42,926 bases of DNA, from IMG/VR virus record IMGVR_UViG_3300024273_000359, positions 1 to 42,926 of that record, one strand, 5' to 3'. This DNA is from a virus. Positions 8,613-15,844 of this stretch are shown in pieces. Both the position numbers and the translations under genes were made by a program. Numbering within the stretch: position 1 is the stretch's first letter; each line of letters starts with the position of its first letter. The notes under the pieces were generated by a model. The model was not told where the DNA came from, did not search any database, and saw nothing but the letters and a program-made list of their open reading frames with translations.

Positions 8613-10946
8613 TTAGCGGAAGATGCTAATTGTTAAGTGTGGGTTGTCCGAAAACGATGGCGCAGCTGCCGCAGTGGTAGCAGCTATCCTGCAAGAAGAT
8701 GCCGTCCAGTTAGGCGCAGTTGTATCGTTCGCTCCGTTTCCAGTCAATATTCTGCCAATTCTCCCGTGCATGCTTGAAATTGCGTAGTTTGAGTCAGGCA
8801 TTGCAGTAGTAAAGTTAACTGTATAATCACCATTCCCATTGTCCGAAATTGAACTCACATTACCACTGCCACGAATAGCCACAGTTCCTGCGCCATTAAA
8901 GTTAACCCAAGCACGACAGCCGTATGCAGTTGCAGCAGAGCCGTAGCCTGAGTTGAATTGCAAGTTGCTGCTTTCATCAATAATTGCAGAAACAGTCCCA
9001 CCATATCCACCACGCCAAAAATAAATTGCGCCAGCACCCTTTGCTGACAACGCTAAATTAACACTTGCATTTCCACCAGTTGCTTCAACCCTAGCAGTGC
9101 CGCCACCCCCAAGCAAAGATACTTGGTCTGTTTGATCTGTTCCCGCTGCTATTGTTCCAGCAACAGCCAGCTTGCCGTAGTTTTGTGGAGAACTTGTCCC
9201 AATACCCACATTGGAATTAACAATTAGGTTTCCCGTAATCGTGTCGCCACTCTTAGAAACTTTACTAGATAAGTCCACGCCAGCAACTGCTGTATCTGTG
9301 TAGCTATTTGCACCAGCAATTAAAGAATCCGCTTGAGCCTTGCTATATGTATCTGCAATTAAGAAATTACCAAATGCATCTACAACTAACTCATCCCCAA
9401 GGGAGGCGGCTGCTATTAACGTAATGTTCACACCATCGGTAGCTGTATAGTCCTCGCCGGGTCGTAAACGGATACCGTTCAAAGCGACTATTACCGCAGG
9501 AGCTGTGTAGCTTAAAGTTTGACCATCAGCGTCAGTGCCTGTGAAGACCGTCTGACTCGCCGTTGCTACAAACTCAAAGGTTGCTAAGGTTGCTACAGAT
9601 GCACTTGATGAAGAAAGCCAACCACTAGATGTGTAAATTTTCATCACACCATCTGGCGTATTGAAATACAAAGCGCCAACAATAAGGGTGTCACCATCAT
9701 TGTCCAAAGCTGGGTCAGATGTTTTTGCTCCTAAATAGCGATCATCAAAGTTATCAAGGATTGACGCCGCAGAAGCCGCAGATTGAGCCGCTTGAACAGC
9801 ACTGGCTGCTGCGCCTGAAGCTTGGTTAGGAGCATCAATAATTGCTGCGATGTTTGAGGCAACTGTGGTTACATCAGCGTTAATACCTGCAACAGTGTTG
9901 ATGTTTGTAGCGTTAGCCACAACAGCGTTAATGTTGGCAGTGTTGGCTACTGCTGAATTGATGTTCGTCGTATTACCGGCGACAGTATTAACGTTGGCAG
10001 CGTTGTTTGCCACAGCTGTGACATTGGCGTTGTTAGTTGCTACGGTCGTAACGTTTCCAGAGATCCCAGAAACTGTTGACACTGCGCTACTGATACCCGC
10101 GACTGTTGTCACATTGGCATCGTTGTTAGCGACTGTAGTTACCTTAGTATCTATCGCTCCAACTTTGCTTACGTTGGCGTTGTTGCCAGCAACGGTGTTT
10201 ACGCTTGTGATATTAGCGGCAACCGTATTGACGTTAATGATCGCAGCGCCGACAGTGTTGACGTTTACGATGGATCCTGCGGCAGTGTTAACTGATGCAA
10301 TAGAACCAGCAACTGTGGTGACGTTTGCGTCGTTGTTGGCTACGGTCGTAACCTTAGCGTCTACTGCGGCTACCTTGTTCACGTTGCTGATAGCAGCGCC
10401 GACAGTGTTGACGTTTGTAATGCTACCGGCGACAACACCTACGTTACTGATAGCAGCGCCGACGATGTTTACGTTACCGATACTACCGGCGACTGTGGAT
10501 ACAAATGGGTATAGGTTATCTATAGTCCCCTTGTTCACAGCGTCCCCAGCGTCTACTGGGTTGCCTACGTTCTTGATAACGAATGATGATGCTTCCCACT
10601 TACCTGTGGCTGTGTCAAACCCTAAGGATTGATCAGCGCGGTCGTAGGTTTCCTGAGACACATAGGTCGAGAAGATCGCTAGTGTGTCTAGGTCAGCTTC
10701 ACGCAGGATAGAACCATCAGAGAAGTCCACAGGTACGGATACCTTAGGTGTCTGACGGGCTATGGTTATTCGAGCGCCTGAGGCTGCTGCGGTGTCTAAG
10801 GTGATTGTGTTTGTGTTGTCGAAAACAAAAGCTACAGCATCGACACCAACGGTTACAACAATGTGATCCTGAGATACATACGGAAAGGGAAAGCTGTAGG
10901 TGCGCGAACTGCCATCACCTACGAACTGGACAATACTAAATGCCAC
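8613..10946 (-). CDS. Tail fibre protein (T7 gp17-like N-terminus)
   Basis: The frame is open to 10979, but the likely start is GTG at 10946: GGAG lies 8 bases before it and the frame then reads MAFSIVQFVGDGSSRTYSFP. Residues 1-150 match the T7 gp17 tail-attachment domain, including VDFSDGSILREADLD. Roughly residues 155-370 are an 11-residue repeat (xxVAxNxANVT type), likely a long trimeric coiled shaft. An Ala-rich stretch, two beta domains (TASQTVFTGTDADG...; GNLIVNSNVGIGTSSP) and a C-terminal head follow. At 777 aa it is longer than T7 gp17 (553). It mediates host recognition and attaches to the tail tube. Confidence 0.9.
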   Translation of the reverse strand: MAFSIVQFVGDGSSRTYSFPFPYVSQDHIVVTVGVDAVAFVFDNTNTITLDTAAASGARITIARQTPKVSVPVDFSDGSILREADLDTLAIFSTYVSQETYDRADQSLGFDTATGKWEASSFVIKNVGNPVDAGDAVNKGTIDNLYPFVSTVAGSIGNVNIVGAAISNVGVVAGSITNVNTVGAAISNVNKVAAVDAKVTTVANNDANVTTVAGSIASVNTAAGSIVNVNTVGAAIINVNTVAANITSVNTVAGNNANVSKVGAIDTKVTTVANNDANVTTVAGISSAVSTVSGISGNVTTVATNNANVTAVANNAANVNTVAGNTTNINSAVANTANINAVVANATNINTVAGINADVTTVASNIAAIIDAPNQASGAAASAVQAAQSAASAASILDNFDDRYLGAKTSDPALDNDGDTLIVGALYFNTPDGVMKIYTSSGWLSSSSASVATLATFEFVATASQTVFTGTDADGQTLSYTAPAVIVALNGIRLRPGEDYTATDGVNITLIAAASLGDELVVDAFGNFLIADTYSKAQADSLIAGANSYTDTAVAGVDLSSKVSKSGDTITGNLIVNSNVGIGTSSPQNYGKLAVAGTIAAGTDQTDQVSLLGGGGTARVEATGGNASVNLALSAKGAGAIYFWRGGYGGTVSAIIDESSNLQFNSGYGSAATAYGCRAWVNFNGAGTVAIRGSGNVSSISDNGNGDYTVNFTTAMPDSNYAISSMHGRIGRILTGNGANDTTAPNWTASSCRIAATTAAAAPSFSDNPHLTISIFR

Positions 10947-10958
10947 TATGGATACTCC

Positions 10959-10987
10959 AAAAAGAAACCCGGCTTTCACCGGGCTTT
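10959..10987 (-). terminator. Intrinsic terminator after the gp16-like gene
   Basis: On the minus strand AAGCCCGG and CCGGGTTT form a stem (five GC pairs plus flanking A-T pairs) around TGAAAG, followed by CTTTTT. It lies between the gp16-like stop (10991) and the fibre Shine-Dalgarno. It would reduce read-through from virion genes into the fibre/lysis cassette. Confidence 0.7.
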
Positions 10988-10990
10988 AAA

Positions 10991-13900
10991 TTAATCAGGA
11001 ACTTGCTTATCGCTTGTTGGGAAGGTTCCCGCGATACCGTTAAGAATTGTTGAGAATGGAGGCACACTGCTTAGGGGTACTACCGTCCTGCCCCATGTTC
11101 GGATGTCACGGCTCGTTGTTTGATATTCATCAGACGCTGAGTTACGCACGATCTTCTGCATGGAGATCAGAGAGTTGATTGCTGACAGAGTTGGGTTGGA
11201 CGCAATCGATGACAAGTCCGACGTAGTACGCATGCCAGAGAACAGAGGCTGTCCTGTCATGGTTCCTATGGTGGTGTCATACGCCGTTGGTAACAGTGAT
11301 GCTTGGCTGATACGACCGAAGCCGTTAGCCATCACTTGCCCAAACGTCATACGCTCTTCCATGAACTTGCGTCGATCATCGTCGCTCATGCCAAGCGCAC
11401 TTAACTGGCTGCGTCCCATGTATGCTAAGGATCCGAAGAACCCGCCGTACATCACGGTCATAAAGGTAGACATGTCCGCATGGTGTATGCCATACATCAA
11501 TGACTTGTTCCAAGCTTGCATCGTGAAGTTCTGGAATTGGAATACTGTCTGACCCAATGAGCTACCCATAATGGGGATCATTGCTGCCAGATCGTTTTCC
11601 TGAACTACACGCCGGGATTCCCGCTGCACTGCCAATATAAAATCAGCGTGTGTCTTTGGGTCATCCAGTTGCCACTTGTCAAAGTCAACAGCCTTGGTCG
11701 TTGAGAACTCACCTTTAACATCCTTAGAGTAGCGAACGATAGCTTCCTTCATGTTAGTGAAGTCCACCTCGTCCAACCCCATCATTGCCAAACGATCCTT
11801 GGTTAGAAAAGTGTTCTCCTTACCATGTGCTAGTCCAACGAAGTGGTTTGTCAAAGCTGTTGCATGTGTACGCTTCTGCTGCACCATTGCTCCAGTCATG
11901 CCGGTGTTGTTCAACACACCTGATGCGAGGTTGCCTAGCTTGGTATCCAAGCCATCCAGAAACCTGTTCATCTTTGTGTCACCAAACTTGCGAACCCATG
12001 TGTCGCTATCAGCAAAGTTCATCCTTTGGACAAAGTCTGCACCGGCTCCACCCATGGTGTTCTCAAGGTGCTCTAGTAGTTCAGTAGGAGCCGCGCCTGT
12101 AACCAAGTCACGGCGAAGCTTACTCAGACCTGGAGTTGCCTCAAGGGTCGCACGGAGACCAAGGGTTCCGACGATCTGTGACGCTTCTACTAACTGGTTG
12201 AACACCGCACCGCCCATAAGACGTGCCACGTTGAACTTACGCCACATCTCCATTACCTTCTTGAACTTGGTAACTTCCTCCTGAGGTACGCCCATGATTC
12301 TTTCAAACGCGAACTTTAGTGCTTCCGTGCTTTTAGCTTGGGATCCTTCAGTGGTTAAACCATCACCAATCTCCACGCGAGTAGCAGCTGAAATGGCTGA
12401 GTCAATCTCTGTTGACTTGTAGATGTTCACATGATTTGCAAGAGCTACAGAGCCAGCCATCCGGCGTGAGTAGTTCTTAAAGTTGTCAAGGATCCGCGTA
12501 TCGAACAGGTCGTTAAACCCAATCTCAAACGAGTTGCCCTCTTTATCAATCCATGTCTCCTTGTGAAGTTCGTCTAAAGAGTTGCGGTGCTTCAGGCTTG
12601 AACTGAGTGCGCCGGTATCGCTAGGCTTACTTGGGAACATATCATTGAGAATCTCATCCGCCTCAAACGAATTGATCTCAAGTTTTTCCATTAAGGATGT
12701 CTTGAGACCCTCACGATCCTGACCCTTCAACATGTTGTCTACAAGCTCGTTAGCGCGGTTACGTCTGCCTTCCCATGTAGTCCTCACATACCACTTAGCA
12801 AACCTCGCAGAGCGCTCCTCAGTGGCTCCTGAGACCTTCCTAAAGCTGTTGGCAAACCAGCCCTCGAATGCTTCAATGCCGAACTTAGAAACTAGTGGAT
12901 CCCACTTCTGCATATCGCCTATTCGTGTGATGTAACGTAGGTTCTTTGCAAGCGGCGGAGTCATCATCTTTTCGCCAGTCTCAGGATCAATGAACTCACG
13001 CTGGGTCAGACCTTTTTTGGTTTCACCTGTATGTAGACCGGGGTTGTTGACGTGATCAACCACACCGCCCATCACCTGTTGATACTGCTGACCGGATTTG
13101 ATTACTGATGGGTGGTAGTCACCCTCAACGCCAAGCACGTAGTTTTGTATCTGCTCTTGGAAAGCCTCCCAAGCTTTACCCCTTTGATACCATTTGTAAC
13201 CACCAACCTCTTTGAACTCGTTAAACCGGATGTCCATGCCTACGAACATTTTCTTGTCCCAAGACAGGTTTAGTTGGATCGTGCTGTCCCAAGCATTGCG
13301 CTTGACAACGCCGTGACCTTTGTAACCTACGGTTGTCCCGAAGAGACTTGATGCAAGGTTCTTAACGCTTTGGGATATACCCTTACCACTAAGAATATTC
13401 TCTAAAGCCAGACCCCATCCATACACATCGCCTATGTCTTCACGCGAGGCAACTTGAGCGGTGATTTGATCTGCATACTCGTTGGCTGGACTCAGGTTGA
13501 TACCTCTTGTTGATCCATCCTTACGGGCAAGTGATACATCCAACCTGCTATCCATCATCTGACCTAGGAGGTCATAGGACTTTAATAGCGCGTTAGTCTC
13601 CTTTGCGCCCATGCCAAACATCTTGCGAACAATGTCAACGATCTTGTGTACGAGGTTCTTGTCAGCAACCTTGATGCCCTTTAGCAAGTCAAGAAACTCT
13701 ACTTCTCTAGAACCTTTGGAACCTGAGAAAAGGCCAGCAGTGAATTCATAAATGTTAGTTAGGTAGTAGTTACCGTTATCACCCGTACCACTACGACCGT
13801 ACTTCTTTTTATATTCCTTTAAAGCCAGCTTGTACAAATCCTGCAACTCTGCGGTTTGCTTTCCTAATGTGGTTCCGACGTTCTCCATACCGTAGTCAAG

Positions 13901-15844
13901 CTTGTGAACAGTTGCGGAATGCAGCATCTCGTGAACAATAGTTGGGTAATCCTTTTTCCCACTGTCAGGCATGAAGACACGGTGCGAAGCGCGGGTGTAG
14001 TAGCCAGCCCAATTTCTATTGGCATGCTTGTTCCACTCCGTAGAAGGCAACCATGACACAGGAAGATCTTCTGGGATTGAGTCATGTAAGAATTGACCAA
14101 GCTGCTTAATATGGGGGTCGGTGCTGTTATTCACCGCCTCAAGAAGAACCGCTTTAGCTGAAGTCGTGTCAGGATACCTAAGCGTTTCGGAAAACTCTTT
14201 CCTTGATTTCGTATTGAAGTCTTTATGTAAACGCTCAAGGTCTTGCTTAGTGTTTATTCCTAAGCTTTTCCAAGTTTGAGCATTTAATTTATTACCCGTA
14301 TAAAGGGTTGCCGAAATTGAACCATCAGGTGCAAAGACGAAATTTCTTAGTAACGACGGGAGGTCTGTAAAACTTCCACCAGCGAACAAGTCATAAACTA
14401 CACGCTCACCAGCACCTGTTGTTGAAGCGTCGTTGTCAAACCAAGATGCATAAGATTTTGACTCGTACTCATCTTTTAAACCACGTATAAACAGCGGTGG
14501 TACTTCAACCTTGTCTACGTTAGAAAAGTTCGTATTGATGTACAGCGCTGTGTCACGCTCTAGATCATTAGCAAACTTAGCACTCCAGCCAGATAGGTCT
14601 GCGTCAACCTTTGCTTTGAACGCCTTACCTGAATCAGTAAGCATGTCCTCGAACCCTGCGATGTCCGCCTCTTGCTTACGCAATCGGATGAGATCTTCAA
14701 GGGCTGCGGCTTCTACAGATTCAGCTTTTCTTGCAGCGGCAAGATCGTCATAGTCAACCAGCTTTCCCGCCTTCTTACTCAGGAGTCCTAAGGGAGTTGC
14801 GATGTAAAGACCCATCAGTGCTGCGTACTTTATATCCTCAGGTAACCCTATGGTCTTCGTGTTGTTTGTGACTGCTTCAAAGGCAGTGTTGGAAGCTGCT
14901 GCTACTAATCCCATCTCAATAGCCCTAGCAACACGGGATGCCTTTGCAAGGAACAAAGGCGCACCAAGTGCTGGAACCGCAATCGATATTGCCGTATCGA
15001 CATCAACCATCGACCCGCCCATCACACCTGCCATACCCGGAACCCCGTAGGCTGCTGCATCTCCGGTTTTCTTTAGAAGATCACGAACCCGGTTAGACCC
15101 AAGGGTAAGCCCTTCGTTAGAGAACGATGAGTTAGCAATCTTGCTGTGGTATATCTGAGGGATACCTTCAAAAGCAACTTCATAATCAGCAATCGTTGGC
15201 GCGTAGTCAGGATCTGCCTTACGGCTGTTGACTATGTTTTCACCCAAGCCGTACCAAGATGTCTGCTGTACACCAGCGGCTACACCTTTACCAAAACCAA
15301 CAAAACTGTTTCCAATACCGTCATACTTTGCTGCTGATTTTGCATCATCAAGTATCTCCCTGCCGGGATTCCCCATCATCGTTGGGGCATCGGATACTAC
15401 GGGTTCTACGGGAGTGTTAACGGCGGGGCTGGGCATCATGGATGCTTGCAGCGGTGTACCATTAAACTTTGCTAAGTAGCCAGCGGTTTCCTTAAAAGGC
15501 TTACCGGCATCTAACGCTTTAACTGCGGGTTTGCCGCCGTTGTAATAAGCGAGTGAGCGGTTTACATCACCGCCGTGCATCTTCAGTACATCAGATAAAA
15601 ATCTAGCTGCACCATCTGCTGATTGGTTGAAGTCTGTGGGGTCGGTAACCCCATACTGTTTAGCTGTCGCTGGCATGAACTGGAACCAGCCCTTTGCTGA
15701 CTCACCGGACTTTGTTACAGGCCCGACTGCATCACCTCGGTGACTGGATTCAATACCGGAGATTTTCCACAAGATGCCCTCAGGCAAATTGTTTTGCTTC
15801 TCCAGTTCTGATGCCTTCTTACGATACTCATCAAGAGTAGGCAT
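10991..15844 (-). CDS. Internal virion/ejection protein with transglycosylase and HExxH motifs (T7 gp16-like)
   Basis: At 1617 aa this is the largest gene; T7 gp16 is 1318 aa. Residues about 20-130 are a lytic transglycosylase domain with catalytic Glu in GIESSH (E32), GWFQFMPATAKQYG and AYYNGG, as in gp16, which cuts peptidoglycan and forms the trans-envelope ejection channel. An added feature is TIVHEMLHSATVH, with the zinc-protease signature HEMLH at about residues 638-642 (13919-13933). It sits in a block (about 600-740) not found in T7 gp16 as I recall it. The C-terminal third is helical with small hydrophobic segments (e.g. YGGFFGSLAYMG). It overlaps the gp15-like gene by one base. Confidence 0.95.
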   Translation of the reverse strand: MPTLDEYRKKASELEKQNNLPEGILWKISGIESSHRGDAVGPVTKSGESAKGWFQFMPATAKQYGVTDPTDFNQSADGAARFLSDVLKMHGGDVNRSLAYYNGGKPAVKALDAGKPFKETAGYLAKFNGTPLQASMMPSPAVNTPVEPVVSDAPTMMGNPGREILDDAKSAAKYDGIGNSFVGFGKGVAAGVQQTSWYGLGENIVNSRKADPDYAPTIADYEVAFEGIPQIYHSKIANSSFSNEGLTLGSNRVRDLLKKTGDAAAYGVPGMAGVMGGSMVDVDTAISIAVPALGAPLFLAKASRVARAIEMGLVAAASNTAFEAVTNNTKTIGLPEDIKYAALMGLYIATPLGLLSKKAGKLVDYDDLAAARKAESVEAAALEDLIRLRKQEADIAGFEDMLTDSGKAFKAKVDADLSGWSAKFANDLERDTALYINTNFSNVDKVEVPPLFIRGLKDEYESKSYASWFDNDASTTGAGERVVYDLFAGGSFTDLPSLLRNFVFAPDGSISATLYTGNKLNAQTWKSLGINTKQDLERLHKDFNTKSRKEFSETLRYPDTTSAKAVLLEAVNNSTDPHIKQLGQFLHDSIPEDLPVSWLPSTEWNKHANRNWAGYYTRASHRVFMPDSGKKDYPTIVHEMLHSATVHKLDYGMENVGTTLGKQTAELQDLYKLALKEYKKKYGRSGTGDNGNYYLTNIYEFTAGLFSGSKGSREVEFLDLLKGIKVADKNLVHKIVDIVRKMFGMGAKETNALLKSYDLLGQMMDSRLDVSLARKDGSTRGINLSPANEYADQITAQVASREDIGDVYGWGLALENILSGKGISQSVKNLASSLFGTTVGYKGHGVVKRNAWDSTIQLNLSWDKKMFVGMDIRFNEFKEVGGYKWYQRGKAWEAFQEQIQNYVLGVEGDYHPSVIKSGQQYQQVMGGVVDHVNNPGLHTGETKKGLTQREFIDPETGEKMMTPPLAKNLRYITRIGDMQKWDPLVSKFGIEAFEGWFANSFRKVSGATEERSARFAKWYVRTTWEGRRNRANELVDNMLKGQDREGLKTSLMEKLEINSFEADEILNDMFPSKPSDTGALSSSLKHRNSLDELHKETWIDKEGNSFEIGFNDLFDTRILDNFKNYSRRMAGSVALANHVNIYKSTEIDSAISAATRVEIGDGLTTEGSQAKSTEALKFAFERIMGVPQEEVTKFKKVMEMWRKFNVARLMGGAVFNQLVEASQIVGTLGLRATLEATPGLSKLRRDLVTGAAPTELLEHLENTMGGAGADFVQRMNFADSDTWVRKFGDTKMNRFLDGLDTKLGNLASGVLNNTGMTGAMVQQKRTHATALTNHFVGLAHGKENTFLTKDRLAMMGLDEVDFTNMKEAIVRYSKDVKGEFSTTKAVDFDKWQLDDPKTHADFILAVQRESRRVVQENDLAAMIPIMGSSLGQTVFQFQNFTMQAWNKSLMYGIHHADMSTFMTVMYGGFFGSLAYMGRSQLSALGMSDDDRRKFMEERMTFGQVMANGFGRISQASLLPTAYDTTIGTMTGQPLFSGMRTTSDLSSIASNPTLSAINSLISMQKIVRNSASDEYQTTSRDIRTWGRTVVPLSSVPPFSTILNGIAGTFPTSDKQVPD

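Follow-up and report, generated by a model that had tools for sequence, protein, structure and literature searches.

The virus record analysed here over its whole length of 42,926 bases, hereafter called the window, encodes a gp16-like ejection protein in which an initial annotation had marked a HExxH zinc-protease motif. This raised the questions of whether the motif is real or a chance match, what kind of domain it belongs to, and on which side of the host envelope such a domain would act once the protein has been ejected.

The gp16-like protein and its gene block

The window has T7-like gene content, and its T7-type RNA polymerase is 55% identical to the counterpart in Bordetella phage BB8. 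The internal virion gene block lies on the minus strand (Table 1), and the gene of the gp16-like protein (P0001) is the largest in the window. The protein is homologous over its full length to phrog_342, a family with the database name 'internal virion protein with endolysin domain', and its gene follows the gp14- and gp15-like genes, as expected of a T7 gp16-like ejection protein. It is 42% identical to a protein of Limnohabitans phage YIMV22061. The N-terminal transglycosylase that the initial annotation had placed in the same polypeptide was recovered as an SLT domain above the Pfam cut-off. No wall-cutting domain was found in the gp15-like protein, for which the Pfam scan gave no match.

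Two further observations were made on this block and its relatives. A tail-fibre-like protein (8613-10979, minus strand) contains many degenerate NVNTVAxNxxxVTTVA repeats, and the gp16-like protein of BB8 (L012, 4522-9174), which is among the closest relatives, has no recognisable SLT domain in its first ~130 residues.

Table 1. Features of the internal virion gene block, with positions in the window
Feature	Position	Strand	Basis
gp16-like internal virion/ejection protein, 1617 aa	10991..15844	-	phrog_342 E=1.3e-143, residues 6-1613
SLT lytic transglycosylase domain, residues 13-110 of the gp16-like protein	15515..15808	-	Pfam PF01464 E=1.2e-9, above cut-off
Hydrophobic segments, residues 282-300 and 338-356; counterpart of T7 gp16 TMH I	14777..15001	-	hydropathy scan and T7 gp16 alignment
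Zincin-like metallopeptidase domain (predicted), residues 555-768	13541..14182	-	alignments; AlphaFold models; N4 vRNAP profile phrog_2206
HExxH motif (HEMLH, residues 638-642)	13919..13933	-	direct translation; invariant in 65 sequences
Glu700 in TNIYEFTAG, predicted third zinc ligand	13745..13747	-	invariant in 65 sequences; modelled on the second C-terminal core helix
gp15-like internal virion protein, 792 aa	15844..18222	-	phrog_23202 E=7.5e-67
Probable gp14-like internal virion protein, 185 aa	18251..18808	-	position and size only

Conservation of the HExxH motif

Direct translation placed HEMLH exactly where the initial annotation had put it, within the sequence TIVHEMLHSATVH, which begins at residue 635. 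A bare HExxH count was dropped as evidence, since the motif occurs in 2.2% of shuffled copies of the 1617-aa protein and T7 gp16 (L044) itself contains HERLH at residue 559. The latter is not found in the relative Kvp1 and has no zincin profile match; on these comparisons, it is a chance match.

The motif of the window is raised above chance because it is conserved across homologues. A tblastn search with the domain as the query returned 40 phage records, and all of the representatives translated from them kept both HExxH and a downstream Glu. Further scans widened the homologue set to 65 diverse sequences, in which the mean column identity was 18% and the only invariant columns were H638, E639, H642 and E700. 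Part of the set was retrieved through one or the other half of this pattern. In the 20 metagenomic homologues retrieved via the Glu motif, HExxH is an independent observation, and it was kept in every one; in the set retrieved partly via HEAVHAAT, greater independence attaches to the Glu motif, which was present in all tabulated members. Judged from these alignments, the HExxH motif is real and lies in a discrete domain spanning residues about 555-768, close to the range of 550-760 proposed initially.

We also considered the metzincin pattern (HExxHxxGxxH, with a third His as ligand), which was rejected: the spacing in HEMLHSATVH is wrong, and H647 is not conserved and so is not a ligand. The ligand pattern, as read from the alignment, is gluzincin-type, consisting of HExxH and Glu.

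The same four columns bear on whether the domain is catalytic at all. The domain of the PhiM1 ejection protein helps form grooves for DNA spooling (PMC11440229), which would suit a fold kept in the internal core as a catalytically dead structural spacer. However, a structural role gives no reason to expect strict conservation of precisely these His and Glu residues at so low a mean identity, and dead relatives should then turn up among the 65 sequences, where none was seen. We consider the spacer reading improbable.

Predicted fold of the domain

Two AlphaFold runs were in agreement, and the better model had a pLDDT of 86.1 and a pTM of 0.81. In its own numbering, the N-terminal part of this model comprises helices 8-18 and 22-34 and strands 40-44, 60-62 and 67-71. 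HExxH (83-87) lies on helix 78-99 and Glu145, which corresponds to E700, on a short helix (143-149); a long helix (104-127) between the two was read as a variable insert. The HExxH helix and the Glu700 helix thus appear in zincin order with a predicted third ligand, as far as the order of elements in a model can tell, which was the structural check suggested by the initial annotation. The order also agrees with the topology described for the metallopeptidases (MPTases) of polyvalent proteins (PMC5512222): the model places HExxH on the first C-terminal helix and Glu on the second, and in predicted element order only, it contains the three-stranded sheet with an N-terminal helix.

Foldseek searches against predicted viral structures retrieved internal core proteins (BB8, RSB3, Ab05) and virion RNA polymerases. 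Searches of the PDB with the two models gave no significant match; the zincins jannalysin (4jix), collagenase H and LTA4 hydrolase appeared only as insignificant hits, and 8VB2 was not among the hits listed, although the sequence profile finds it. The basis of the fold assignment is therefore the predicted topology together with sequence homology. Taken together, these indicate that residues 555-768 very probably have a zincin-type fold whose active site is intact.

Relation to other zincins of injected proteins

The profile of the virion RNA polymerases (phrog_2206) was matched by 51 of the 65 members (best 1.6e-16) and by the window domain itself at E=1.7e-4 to 5e-4, over profile positions 2023-2151. 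The genome of N4 matched the domain within its vRNAP (E=1.3e-7). The N4 zincin, which lies in the C1 domain with HELVH at 2228, resembles that of the window in its homologous sequence, its HExxH and its location in a protein of very large size that is packaged and ejected. The two differ in their fusion partners: the N4 zincin is joined to a T7-type RNA polymerase, whereas that of the window is joined to an SLT domain and a T7 gp16-type DNA-translocation hub.

Profile-profile comparison with MPTase-PolyVal gave probabilities of 83% and 92% over about 42 columns. The window domain had no direct match to the corresponding Pfam family (PF18818) at the curated cut-off, and the best relative reached 0.0022. 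The polyvalent-protein MPTases (Iyer et al. 2017, PMC5512222) share with the window domain the predicted topology, HExxH with a helix-borne Glu, and the behaviour of a module shuffled among multidomain injected proteins. On the strength of these profile matches, the window domain is homologous to the N4 vRNAP zincin and to the polyvalent-protein metallopeptidases. Peptidase M78 (ImmA/IrrE, PF06114) was tried and rejected at a profile-profile probability of 2.4%, obtained against a small six-sequence alignment. Scans with NCBIfam and PADLOC gave nothing convincing, and a plasmid search with the window domain gave no match.

Zincins in injected phage proteins were already known, among others in N4 vRNAP and in lysozyme-MPTase fusions (PMC5512222), and the domain described here is thus of a familiar kind. 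Of a zincin in T7-like gp16 proteins we found no report in the open literature (subscription papers fell mostly outside the search); the main text of PMC5512222 nowhere mentions 'internal virion'.

The endolysin label of the PhiM1 ejection protein

A profile search found three PDB chains: 8VB2, the tetrameric ejection protein (TEP) of PhiM1; 9SFN, a phiKMV-like internal virion protein; and 23SG, a gp10. All three contain the domain of the window, in gp16-like or similar-sized proteins. No N-terminal SLT domain was detected in the proteins of phiKMV, KP34 and PhiM1, unlike that of the window.

In PhiM1, the authors labelled Asp268-Asp528 as endolysin/exotransglycosidase-like from BLASTP and DALI (PMC11440229), and databases name such proteins 'with endolysin domain'; on both grounds the domain might be taken for an endolysin or a transglycosylase. 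We found, however, that residues 268-528 of the PhiM1 protein (L052, JX290549; AFQ22528) contain HEAAH at 385 and DTHEF downstream and match the zincin profile with 97-98% probability, versus 0.2-0.3% for SLT. The window domain, compared with two SLT alignments, likewise gave 0.1-0.2%. The name suits T7 gp16, where an SLT domain is N-terminal. The profile comparisons do not support the label of PhiM1, and an endolysin or transglycosylase identity is very unlikely for the domain. We suspect that the label was inherited from database names such as that of phrog_342. This reading would correct a published and widely propagated label in a solved ejectosome, and several well-studied phages would likewise carry the zincin-like domain under the wrong name of a wall-cutting enzyme.

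Position of the domain relative to T7 gp16

T7 gp16 resembles the window protein in its overall family, N-terminal SLT domain, membrane segment and hub, and differs from it in being without the zincin. In the alignment of the two, residues about 361-720 of the window protein are matched in T7 gp16 by a stretch of about 60 residues only (404-465), which bears out the proposal that this region accounts for much of the extra length over T7 gp16. The composite model of T7 gp16 assigns residues 1-228 to the periplasm, 243-410 to TMH I and 411-1118 to the cytoplasmic hub (PMC8954989). The zincin insertion, at T7 gp16 about 404-465 and behind two hydrophobic segments, falls where TMH I ends and the hub begins. 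Because it is inserted after TMH I and before the hub, the zincin would emerge on the cytoplasmic side of the inner membrane. With the topology carried over from the T7 composite model, the domain probably acts there and not in the envelope.

The initial annotation had offered two possibilities, that the ejected protein carries two envelope-cutting activities or that it cuts host cytoplasmic proteins. For the first, the domain would cut envelope proteins or peptidoglycan peptides and so aid the SLT domain in opening the wall, and the two do occur in one polypeptide, in the window, Paku, L026, L032-L034 and L037. They are not tied to each other, however, as all four combinations of presence and absence of SLT and zincin occur among the gp16-like proteins compared. 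The domain bears no resemblance to an SLT wall hydrolase, and its predicted position beyond TMH I also argues against action in the envelope. Envelope cutting thus seems a poor candidate, and the cutting of host cytoplasmic proteins fits the predicted location better.

Distribution and loss of the module

The zincin is carried by phiKMV gp37, KP34 gp48, PhiM1 and many phages of Pseudomonas, Achromobacter, Burkholderia, Providencia and Bordetella. It was absent from the proteins or genomes of T7, SP6, P-SSP7, HTVC134P, Pasto, yong1, JG068, SBP5phi1 and SVOphi44 that were compared. Two proteins of more than 2000 aa (L040, 1700-8323; L043, 2-6223) have the zincin region alone in common with the gp16-like proteins.

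The loci of SVOphi44 (L055, 2736-6467) and PSTNGR1 (L018, 3924-8291) were compared. SVOphi44 gp44 lacks PSTNGR1 residues about 296-580, which contain the whole zincin, and has about a dozen residues in their place; the flanks of the missing module are 51% and 47% identical. No zincin was found anywhere else in the SVOphi44 genome. These comparisons suggest that the zincin module is accessory in gp16-like proteins, with SVOphi44 pointing to its dispensability in that lineage only.

Proposed role of the ejected zincin

The computed support covers the presence and conservation of the motif, the order of elements in the predicted fold, the homology to ejected zincins, the insertion point and the modular loss; zinc binding, proteolysis, topology and target are what we infer. 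His638, His642 and Glu700 would hold a zinc ion and Glu639 would activate water. The gp16-like protein would be packaged intact in the internal core, be ejected at infection and cross the envelope like T7 gp16. Its SLT domain would then lie in the periplasm, and its zincin would come out directly behind the first membrane segment, on the cytoplasmic face of the inner membrane, where it would most probably cleave a protein in the first minutes of infection. An early defence protein or an inner-membrane protein of the host would be a candidate target.

An alternative target is the ejectosome itself. The zincin might cut its own or a partner ejection protein during or after ejection and so set the cytoplasmic hub free or take the channel apart. 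Auto-processing has been proposed as a main role of polyvalent-protein MPTases, for example P1 DdrB (PMC5512222), and the stretch between membrane segment and hub is a sensible place for such a release. However, the linkers that flank the domain show some of the lowest conservation in the protein (43-48%, versus 59% for the domain, in the comparison with L004; dN/dS for the window and L004 was saturated and was set aside), and no fixed cleavage site stands out in them. In the virion model of the PhiM1 ejection protein, the disordered stretches named for its domain are short loops (PMC11440229). In addition, the proteins of SVOphi44, T7 and SP6 manage without the domain, and it occurs in L040 and L043, which have nothing but the domain in common with the gp16-like proteins. 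Self-cleavage is the less probable reading on this evidence, though a rival to be taken seriously.

Action on the host is favoured over a fixed step of gp16 maturation because the module is an accessory one that shifts among injected proteins of unrelated kinds. A host target is thus given somewhat better odds than ejectosome self-processing, and it is the patchy distribution that mainly suggests it. The reading as a whole, of an ejected gluzincin-type protease acting early in the host and on a host target, stands in our judgement at about an even chance. More tentatively, and with the balance leaning against it, many T7-like phages may inject, alongside the first DNA, a protease that docks where their own entry channel opens into the cytoplasm. 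It would destroy a protein of the host, such as a defence sensor, before the expression of any phage gene, and gain or loss of the module would tune gp16-like proteins to particular hosts or defences.

If the domain is active, a large T7-like group that includes the model phages phiKMV and KP34 would deliver an enzyme ahead of phage gene expression. Its function has become testable, as the residues to mutate are known and the virion structures of relatives have been solved (8VB2, 9SFN). ErraM, which carries the module, and SVOphi44, which does not, are both recorded from the laboratory strain P. putida KT2440 and offer a natural comparison pair.
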